Of a stretch of 32,477 nt of DNA, positions 24,191-25,939 are shown one piece after another; position 1 is the first letter of the stretch; every line of letters begins with the position of its first letter. Both the position numbers and the translations under genes were made by a program. Under the pieces are notes generated by a model. The model did not search any database. It saw only the letters and a program-made list of their open reading frames with translations, and was not told the DNA's origin. The stretch is from a virus: the IMG/VR virus record IMGVR_UViG_3300044631_001674, positions 1-32,477 of that record; one strand, given 5' to 3'.

Positions 24191-24570
24191 CACTCACCCC
24201 CTTCTGTTGCTGGCGGCTTGGGGATCGGCTCAACCAATTTGATTTTTGTGTACCCAATCCGATCCGCCCATTTCGTTTGCCCAACCATAACGCATGACGA
24301 ACTACCCCAAATCTCCGTCCCAATTAGCCCCGCCAATACGTTAGGGTCGACCGTTGGCGGATTTAAGATCGTCAGCACTCTTTGACCGGCAACGCATCCT
24401 GGCTCTCTAGGCTCTAGCTTGAGTCGCACCGCTGGATTGTCTTTTGTCGCACCGTGGCACGTAGGGCAGTCGTCCCACGAATTCGCCTGATCCTTTCCAG
24501 TCATGTTGCACGTTCCGCAATGACTTGGAGCGACCACAGTCACGGCTGCGATTCTTGCGTCAATCGCCAT
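24190..24570 (-). CDS. DnaJ-like Cys-motif protein, 126 aa
   Basis: Starts MAIDARIAAVTVVAPSHCGT. The N-terminal half holds two CxxC knuckles (CGTCNMTG, then DDCPTCHG), a DnaJ-type zinc motif common in small phage proteins. The rest is strand-rich (QRVLTILNPPTVDPNVLAGL, DRIGYTKIKLVEPIPKPPAT). It begins at a GGTGAGTGATG junction and ends in another. Its role is unknown; nucleic-acid or protein binding is plausible. Confidence 0.7.
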   Translation of the reverse strand: MAIDARIAAVTVVAPSHCGTCNMTGKDQANSWDDCPTCHGATKDNPAVRLKLEPREPGCVAGQRVLTILNPPTVDPNVLAGLIGTEIWGSSSCVMVGQTKWADRIGYTKIKLVEPIPKPPATEGGE

Positions 24571-24971
24571 CACTCACCCACCATCGAAAAGTTCGGTTTA
24601 CAGTGTTGCCTCAGCCAGATCGCTTGGCGTTCCCTCGCCGCATCCCACGCCGCAGCCCGTGCCGCAGACCACGCAGCCCGCGCCGCATCCCGCGCCGCTG
24701 ATCGCGCACAATCCCACGCCTCATCCCGTGCCGCAGACCACGCAGCCCGCGCCGCATCCCGCGCATCCCACGCCGCTGATCGCGCACAACCCACGGAAAA
24801 CAATCGCAGCGTTCGATCGTCCAGCACGCCCGGCCTAGTCGCCACCCAGACCAGCCACTCCGGGCGAGCAGTCGCCCACACGTCCGCCATCGTCTTACAG
24901 TTCGCAACCGCCCAGTCGCGGTCATCGAGGCAAGCATGGTGCCGCTCGCAAAAGTCCTCAATCGAAATCAT
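24570..24971 (-). CDS. Ala/Arg-rich repeat protein, 133 aa
   Basis: Starts MISIEDFCERHHACLDDRDW. The first half (VWATARPEWLVWVATRPGVL, then DDRTLRLFSVGCAR) resembles the N-terminus of a widespread family of short proteins sometimes called putative immunity proteins, with a W-rich PEW start and a RLF...CAR segment. The second half is a tandem Ala/Arg repeat (DAARAAWSAAR), encoded by a 40-bp exact DNA repeat. It is linked by overlapping junctions to its neighbours. Function is unknown. Confidence 0.65.
   Translation of the reverse strand: MISIEDFCERHHACLDDRDWAVANCKTMADVWATARPEWLVWVATRPGVLDDRTLRLFSVGCARSAAWDARDAARAAWSAARDEAWDCARSAARDAARAAWSAARAAAWDAARERQAIWLRQHCKPNFSMVGE
24656..24764. repeat. 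Direct repeat inside Ala/Arg-rich gene
   Basis: Two exact 40-bp copies (24656-24695 and 24725-24764) with a 69-bp period, followed by a shared GCCGCTGATCGCGCACAA segment after each. They encode the repeated DAARAAWSAAR unit and indicate recent in-frame expansion. Confidence 0.85.
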
Positions 24972-25060
24972 CACTCACCCCCCATCAACTGAACCGCCAG
25001 AATCAGCACGAACACCGCAACGATGCCGACTAGATCGGCAAGGGATAGATCACTCGCCAT
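24971..25060 (-). CDS. Tiny membrane protein, 29 aa
   Basis: MASDLSLADLVGIVAVFVLI and LAVQLMGGE: a single hydrophobic helix. The start overlaps the methyltransferase stop. The first 18 bases ATGGCGAGTGATCTATCC are identical to the start of the methyltransferase gene, so this start region looks duplicated. Confidence 0.5.
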   Translation of the reverse strand: MASDLSLADLVGIVAVFVLILAVQLMGGE

Positions 25061-25877
25061 CTAAAATATCTTTCGTCATTCTTGCCACAACCTCAGCCAC
25101 CTGTGGAACGATCGCATTGCCTAAGCATCTAAGTCGGTCCACCCTTCTGGGAATCCCATAAGCCACTCGACCCATTGCGGGTTCAATTGCCCAATGGACT
25201 GCTCCTCTTGTACGACAAACCCTTTCAAGTTGCCTTTTTGGTGATCGTGCATAGCCGACCTGCTCCCCGCTGGCCCGCTCCCCTTGGAGTCGGATGCCCG
25301 CGGTGTCGGCCACATCTTCACCGCACCAGGCAAACCATTTCGCAGGTTCGTCGGGTCTATCTCGCCCCGCTTCTCTGCGTCGTTCGCCCGAGGAGTGGGC
25401 CACGATCCATACCCTGTCCCGCCTGTGAGGGGCACCAACGGAGGAAGCTGGAATACAATGCCATTCCGCATCGTACCCGACCTCGGCCAGCGTCCCGAGA
25501 ACTCTATCCAGCCCCCTGTTAAGCAACGCTGCCACGTTCTCCAACACAACCGCTCTGGGTCGCAATTCTCGAACCAAGCGAACGGCCTCGAAAAACAATC
25601 CGCTCCGCTCTCCATCCAATCCTGCCCCTCGTCCGGCGAAGGAAATATCTTGGCACGGAAAGCCTCCGATGATGCAATCGACTCGCTCAAGGTTGCTTGC
25701 ATTGCACTCTCGGATGTCTCTTTGACGGTGGACTTTTGGCCAATGCTTTTCGAGGATCTTCGTTGCATAATCATCGATCTCCACTTGCCAACGGCAAACA
25801 AAACCAGCGCGTTCAAAACCGAGATCAAACCCACCGATGCCAGCAAATAGACTGCCAAAGGATAGATCACTCGCCAT
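25050..25877 (-). CDS. DNA cytosine-C5 methyltransferase, 275 aa
   Basis: Transfers a methyl group from SAM to carbon 5 of cytosine in a specific DNA site. Conserved motifs appear in order: motif I FAGIGGFDLG (11-20), motif IV GGFPCQDISF (71-80) with catalytic Cys75, motif VI ENV (113-115), motif VIII RRDRVW (152-157) and the C-terminal RVDRLRCLGNAIVPQ with motif X near 253. The target-recognition region between VIII and IX is short, so at 275 aa it is smaller than most relatives. The ATG has AGGAGACG upstream. No partner endonuclease is visible, so an orphan protective role is likely. A second ORF overprints it. Confidence 0.93.
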   Translation of the reverse strand: MASDLSFGSLFAGIGGFDLGFERAGFVCRWQVEIDDYATKILEKHWPKVHRQRDIRECNASNLERVDCIIGGFPCQDISFAGRGAGLDGERSGLFFEAVRLVRELRPRAVVLENVAALLNRGLDRVLGTLAEVGYDAEWHCIPASSVGAPHRRDRVWIVAHSSGERRREAGRDRPDEPAKWFAWCGEDVADTAGIRLQGERASGEQVGYARSPKRQLERVCRTRGAVHWAIEPAMGRVAYGIPRRVDRLRCLGNAIVPQVAEVVARMTKDILDGE

Positions 25878-25939
25878 CGTCGCGTCTCCTGTTCCTCGTT
25901 CGTTCGAGTTCCTTTGTCGCGGTCACCTTGCCGCGTCAT
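25121..25939 (-). CDS. Overprinted ORF of the WPTPRASD/LMGFPxGWT family, 272 aa
   Basis: This frame covers almost the whole methyltransferase in another frame. From about residue 92 it follows a family I know from other phages, usually next to C5 methyltransferases: FRAKIFPSP, CDPERLCWRT, FSGRWPRSGTMRNGIVFQLP, two copies of WPTPRA(N/S)D (180-187, 210-217) and QLNPQWVEWLMGFPEGWTDL. The N-terminal hydrophobic stretch (25-52) mirrors methyltransferase motif I and may not be part of the product. The ATG at 25939 lies at the predicted transcription start, so the mRNA could be leaderless; later starts (25774) are possible. Expression is unproven. Confidence 0.5.
   Translation of the reverse strand: MTRQGDRDKGTRTNEEQETRRWRVIYPLAVYLLASVGLISVLNALVLFAVGKWRSMIMQRRSSKSIGQKSTVKETSESAMQATLSESIASSEAFRAKIFPSPDEGQDWMESGADCFSRPFAWFENCDPERLCWRTWQRCLTGGWIEFSGRWPRSGTMRNGIVFQLPPLVPLTGGTGYGSWPTPRANDAEKRGEIDPTNLRNGLPGAVKMWPTPRASDSKGSGPAGSRSAMHDHQKGNLKGFVVQEEQSIGQLNPQWVEWLMGFPEGWTDLDA

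Follow-up and report, generated by a model that had tools for sequence, protein, structure and literature searches.

Whether a stretch of DNA in which two long open frames share the same bases encodes one protein or two, and what the second protein would contribute, is the question raised by IMG/VR virus record IMGVR_UViG_3300044631_001674. The record was analysed over its whole length of 32,477 bases (referred to as the window). On its minus strand, a C5-cytosine methyltransferase frame (frame A) is overlapped in +1 by a second frame (frame B), and the features of both are collected in Table 1. An earlier note, made from the sequence alone, had described two informative frames on these bases. 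This description was confirmed, and every peptide quoted for the second frame was located in B. The correspondence between the frames also held, with EPAMGRVAYGIPRRVDRL lying exactly over NPQWVEWLMGFPEGWTDL and EWHCIPASSVGAPHRR over MRNGIVFQLPPLVPLTG; one detail had to be corrected, in that ENVAAL overlies WRTWQRC of B rather than MRNG.

Table 1. Positions of the features of frames A and B in the window
Feature	Position	Strand	Basis or remark
Frame A, putative catalytic subunit of a C5-cytosine methyltransferase, 275 aa	25050..25877	-	own Shine-Dalgarno AGGAG at 25886-25890
Motifs I-VIII within frame A	25380..25862	-	PF00145 match; catalytic P-C-Q at 25650-25658
Frame A between VIII and X, probably translated through and mostly a shadow of B	25125..25379	-	in homologous loci, A position 1 is fastest here
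Motif X (LGNAIVPQ) in frame A	25101..25124	-	alignment; profile alignment to motif X of single-chain enzymes
Frame B, open frame of 272 aa, +1 to A	25121-25939 (upstream ATG at 25939)	-	
Frame B, likely CDS with leader, WPTP boxes and motif IX, from ATG 25774, 217 aa	25121..25774	-	
GGAG, 4 bases 5' of the likely ATG of B, within A codons	25779..25782	-	GTGGAGATCG then ATG
WPTPRAND box in B	25379..25402	-	TP at least 90% conserved, 90 sequences
WPTPRASD box in B	25289..25312	-	conservation from the same 90-sequence set
LNPQWVEWLMGFPEGWTDL in B, assigned to motif IX	25130..25186	-	M and G invariant, 90 sequences

Frame A was identified by its alignment to Pfam PF00145 (residues 6-166, E 2.5e-51) and to M.HhaI (residues 4-161, E 1.6e-23), both of which cover motifs I-VIII. 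Judged on A alone, membership of PF00145 was borne out by motifs I-VIII with the catalytic PC and by motif X, and the C-terminal profile of A aligned to motif X alone in a profile alignment with single-chain enzymes. The target-recognition region and motif IX were absent from A, the Pfam and M.HhaI alignments both ending at motif VIII. A shares I-VIII and X with the single-chain PF00145 enzymes M.HhaI and M.HaeIII but, unlike them, is without motif IX and a target-recognition region. The statement that A carries all of the C5-methyltransferase motifs was consequently too broad by motif IX.

The database search that the earlier note had suggested for B returned phrog_1008 ('DNA methyltransferase', 329 positions) at 1.4e-28, and no match was found in Pfam, NCBIfam, PADLOC, or PDB. 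Although phrog_1008 is named a methyltransferase, B alone contains none of the catalytic motifs I-VIII. Its LNPQWVEWLMGFPEGWTDL sits at the place expected for motif IX. The underlying block, LNPxWVEWLMGFPxGWTDL, aligned weakly to motif IX of single-chain phage enzymes (KLTPKECWRLQGFPDWAF, RKLTPKECWRLQGFPDWAF; P 0.0025, probability 11.7%) and strongly to RLAAAFPEWMMGWPAGWV of in-frame actinobacteriophage chains (P 2.4e-11), so that motif IX was found in the second, small chain by a match that is weak against classical enzymes and strong against in-frame relatives. In two such relatives, Gordonia phage Stultus gp4 and Mycobacterium phage Deb65 gp64, motifs I-VIII are followed by WPTP-type boxes, the motif IX block and motif X in one chain. 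A model of an in-frame single chain (L364, pLDDT 72.6) was superimposed on M.HhaI with a Z of 21.2 and an rmsd of 3.7 over 254 residues (model residues 1-359). Folded alone, B gave a poor model (pLDDT 59, pTM 0.21), which would fit a subunit and proves nothing.

Relatives with other arrangements were also found, including the relatives without a full A frame that the earlier note had proposed to align. In Toaka, FoulBall, L083, L120, and L133, A stops after motif VIII and the B reading extends into motif X; in L005, L008, L083, L120, and L133, A ends early and B goes on to carry a GN(A/G/S) motif X. The second ORF of EagleEye and Flux (with motif X) is annotated as a separate methyltransferase gene, and separate-gene forms of B adjoin a gene for motifs I-VIII (L263, L266). 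Second ORFs of mycobacteriophages matched phrog_1008 at 3.3e-96 and 1.1e-81. Free-standing homologues, the lack of which had been named as a mark of a shadow frame, therefore exist, and they are methyltransferase halves. The related suggestion of a frame-shadow that later became a free-standing gene was not supported, as the C-terminal part of B is the target-recognition and motif IX part, which stands in frame with motifs I-VIII in single-chain relatives. At two further loci (L092, L113), the frame of motifs I-VIII is interrupted and continues as a single ORF in the frame of B, which is either a natural fusion or a sequencing frameshift.

These arrangements bear on whether B could be an independent product, such as an anti-restriction factor or a regulator, with no part in the enzyme and nothing but its DNA in common with A. 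Such a protein would be compatible with B travelling with A, with a leader without known fold, and with a +1 ORF that also overlaps apparently complete enzymes. We nevertheless consider it very unlikely, given that the late part of B lies in frame inside single-chain C5 methyltransferases, that B extends into motif X at the loci with an early end of A, and that motif IX is missing from A.

The explanation preferred here, and a probable one on the sequence comparisons, is that A and B would be the two subunits of one C5-cytosine DNA methyltransferase, the gene for the catalytic half enclosing that for the specificity half. From A would come motif X and the core (I-VIII) for AdoMet binding and catalysis, and A would be translated through in the 'wrong' frame between VIII and X. 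B would start inside A at its own Shine-Dalgarno/ATG upstream of A's motif IV, cross a leader under weak constraint in +1, go on through the WPTP boxes of the target-recognition region to motif IX, and end as motif X begins. The two chains would associate into a complete enzyme, which would most likely protect phage DNA from host restriction. Translation of B, the association of A with B, specificity, activity, and biological role are what we infer from the comparisons described here.

In order to follow the pairing of the frames, phage records were searched with tblastn, which returned 110 of 50,697 records with B and 1,748 with A. Among the eight phage records first examined, most list A alone or part of A and three list both. 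A scan with the B profile was then taken up for the best 80 viral and best 80 genome loci among the matches listed. Of 181 loci in hand from the matches listed, 177 had B in the +1 frame of A, either with A open through B (172) or with A ending inside B (5). Two of the remaining loci look fused, one is cut by a contig end, and one, the window's own (L181), gave no match, probably because of its opposite orientation. No B without an I-VIII neighbour was seen among the 181 loci except in L077, which is cut by a contig end. Because choice by B would bias the sample, loci were also fetched by A alone, as the 80 best matches to A's alignment; this set samples the subfamily rather than all C5 methyltransferases, and some of its contigs are also in the B-selected set. 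A B match in the +1 frame was present in 80 of these 80 A-selected viral loci.

Within bacteria, a threshold of E <= 1e-20 left 6 of 185 gammaproteobacterial genomes with the pair, a count that includes the seed genome. Most of a phage query in which B is open over almost all of A (L379) was found in 4 of 5,426 E. coli RefSeq genomes, where it is annotated as a DNA cytosine methyltransferase and no second methyltransferase chain is annotated under the match. The Roseovarius chromosome OX638333.1 holds five loci of the pair (L174, L175, L176, L178, L179), whose match values are identical. The open-licence papers searched gave no account of the pair in phages. The A/B overlap is not discussed in the examined parts of PMC6070908 and PMC3091744, and the corresponding part of PMC11855218 describes a different overlap, in which a mycobacteriophage methylase has an insertion that carries an HNH gene.

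Stop codons were counted in the alternative frames and compared with expectations from a codon permutation that preserves the protein of A. At 80 non-redundant B-selected loci (80 of 82 representatives, drawn from 179 loci), the +1 frame contained 0 stops against 242 expected and the +2 frame 777 against 730; the zero is partly a product of choice, because the stretches came from open frames. At the A-selected loci, 30 stops were counted in +1 from about motif IV to X against 268 expected, many of the 30 lying at B's own end, and 685 in +2 against 643. Before motif IV, the +1 frame was unremarkable (130 against 145). Frequent stops in relatives, a sign by which the earlier note would have recognised a shadow ORF, were thus replaced by a depletion in loci that had been chosen through A. 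For the counts by region, 78/80, 157/179, 70/79, and 25/33 loci were usable and were reduced to 50, 61, 12, and 7 representatives below 75% identity, excluding a locus with a 100% match to the window's B (L009). Between motifs IV and VIII, +1 stops numbered 8 against 90 (50 A-selected representatives) and 0 against 96 (61 B-selected); between VIII and X they numbered 15 against 84 and 20 against 96, respectively, with +2 stops as expected.

Substitutions at the codon positions of A were subsequently compared in aligned pairs, which are not independent of one another. The ratio of third to first positions (A3/A1) was 2.36 before motif IV, 1.67 between IV and VIII, 0.55 between VIII and X, and 2.54 at X, the values underlying the VIII-X region being 0.311 (A1), 0.141 (A2), and 0.172 (A3). 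In comparison enzymes, the VIII-X ratio was 1.76 and 2.15. A1, the third position of B, is the fastest between VIII and X, so that there the protein under constraint is B, with A read through; constraint passes to the frame of B directly behind motif VIII and returns to that of A at X. Four-fold sites of A also differed less in this region, with 0.139 between VIII and X versus 0.252 before motif IV in the closest pairs.

The motif IX region was also examined by resampling codons with one protein held fixed, for which 28 of 91 blocks (less than 60% identity) were kept. When A was the fixed protein, B's motif IX block scored a mean of 78 bits above resampled codons, with z > 2 in 28/28 loci, which exceeds the conservation that the constraint on A predicts. 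With B fixed, the block of A around motif IX scored 31 bits above resampled codons, with z > 2 in 24/28 loci. Near motif IX both frames are constrained, B more than A. Because these 31 bits of extra constraint remain given B, the VIII-X stretch of A is not a pure shadow, and its excess constraint falls chiefly on arginines and on the RL that directly precedes motif X. As the block of B is more constrained than that of A, the 'EPAMGRVAYGIPRRVDRL' of A is largely NPxWVEWLMGFPxGWTDL read one base out of frame. Where a shadow had been suspected in the second frame, then, it is mostly the stretch of A within the overlap that acts as one. The N-terminal leader of B, which overlies motifs IV-VIII of A, is weakly constrained.

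A mere shadow, in which B would be an open frame forced by the conserved amino acids of A, might account for the weak constraint on the early part of B over A's IV-VIII (the A3/A1 of 1.67 given above) and for the finding that even a single-chain enzyme (L265) has a +1 frame to which the B profile matches, at 48.8 bits. It is at odds with the depletion of stops at A-selected loci with the protein of A fixed, with the switch of the constrained frame between VIII and X, with the motif IX test in all 28 loci, and with the five loci in which B outlives the frame of A. B as a pure shadow was rejected on the stop depletion, the frame switch, and the motif IX resampling, and we regard the idea as exceedingly improbable. 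As judged by these codon statistics, B is under selection as a protein.

A candidate start for B was found inside A. In the window, the ATG at 25774 follows four bases after GGAG. Upstream of about motif IV, a +1-frame ATG or GTG with a Shine-Dalgarno word was present in 28 of 50 loci (7.7 expected) and in 31 of 61 (10.7 expected), and the same count in the +2 frame, used as a control, gave 7 (9.1 expected) and 9 (11.3 expected). Across 95 non-redundant loci, 64 had an internal start with a Shine-Dalgarno word, 15 an ATG without such a word, and 6 had the starts of A and B four bases apart; no obvious start of B was seen in the other 10. Start codons four bases apart (e.g. ATGAATG) were noted in L004, L134, L157, L170, L177, and L259, where one Shine-Dalgarno word could serve both frames.

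The flip of the constrained frame right after motif VIII and back at X is also what would be expected of one chain produced by programmed ribosomal frameshifting, from A into +1 after VIII and back before X. This route would need two shifts per molecule, and it leaves unexplained both the openness of the +1 frame between IV and VIII (8 against 90 and 0 against 96 stops) and the enrichment of Shine-Dalgarno words and starts; we consider it unlikely. A second start is favoured over frameshifting because start sites are enriched and B is open upstream of motif VIII. The first of the two options offered by the earlier note, that both proteins are made, is supported by the stop depletion, the codon-position rates, and the start-site enrichment.

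The +1 frame was not confined to loci of the window's type. In the apparently complete Streptococcus-phage enzymes (L267-L345), which have motifs IX and X in frame, a +1 ORF was open in 70/70 usable loci, and from IV to VIII 0 stops were counted where 29 were expected. Between VIII and X, 126 stops were counted against 137 expected, the behaviour of a single frame apart from the first ~20 codons after VIII, which evolve in the +1 frame. This group failed as a clean negative control in the IV-VIII region and was kept as a control for VIII-X only. Its +1 ORF (e.g. L267:1646-2071) is ~140-200 aa long with SLSDILEEEVPEKYFLS near the end and matches a family of its own, phrog_16143; a PDB search with these ORFs returned a single row (E 0.54), which was not informative. 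In mycobacteriophage single chains, evolution in the +1 frame extends over the first ~60 codons behind VIII. Mycobacteriophage single chains L346-L372 were observed to have a +1 ORF around motif VIII with PTP boxes, and their later PTP boxes are in the main frame. The supply of motif IX by B fits the window's type and not all types, because the Streptococcus-phage and mycobacteriophage chains also evolve in +1 for a stretch after motif VIII.

A wider reading, which we put forward tentatively and hold to be somewhat less than an even chance, is a continuum in which the functional frame would leave A right after motif VIII and return at a lineage-specific point; such a rule would account for all of these types. 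The return would fall ~20 codons on in the Streptococcus-phage enzymes, ~60 codons on in the mycobacteriophage single chains, and after motif IX in the window's type, whereas AquI-like splits would have no return at all. On this view, even enzymes that look 'complete' would have their core complemented by a +1 partner protein of ancient origin, and the exchange of this nested partner would let phages and bacteria alter their specificity.

For M.EcoHK31I, too, the small chain comes from a different frame within the gene of the large chain. M.AquI and M.EcoHK31I are two-polypeptide C5 methyltransferases and, in the part of PMC3404938 consulted, M.EcoHK31I is described with motifs I-VIII, X, and a predicted target-recognition domain in the larger chain and with motif IX only in the smaller chain, and M.AquI as split into I-VIII and IX-X. 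On that description, M.EcoHK31I (YGGCCR) resembles the window in the layout of its motifs, with IX on the small chain and I-VIII together with X on the large one. It differs in that target recognition is predicted in its larger chain, whereas the VIII-X region of the window's type is constrained in B and not in A. The I-VIII / IX-X split of M.AquI (CYCGRG, alpha/beta), as described there, is resembled by L005, L008, L083, L120, and L133; in the window, by contrast, B lies inside A, which retains motif X.

Should the two-subunit reading hold, what is annotated in phages and bacteria as a single cytosine methyltransferase gene would in many cases be half of a two-chain enzyme with a hidden partner in the other frame. 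Without that partner, expression clones would show no activity or be misjudged, and predictions of methylomes would seek specificity in the wrong frame. The locus would represent a long same-strand overlap (~200 codons) in which the constrained frame switches and switches back, widespread enough for the origin and persistence of overlapping genes to be studied. Naturally split methyltransferases, which are used for targeted methylation, would also be easy to find.

Two further observations were made around the locus. A 31-base direct repeat (87% identity) at 25031-25061 and 25848-25878 of the window places the same start-codon region (GATGGCGAGTGATCTATCC, minus strand) at the start and at the end of A, and a small ORF, MASDLSLADLVGIVAVFVLILAVQLMGG, begins at the repeat copy by A's end; the repeat may be a mark of cassette exchange. 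At 24570-24974 of the window, the minus strand carries an ORF of 134 aa with Ala/Arg/Trp-rich repeats.
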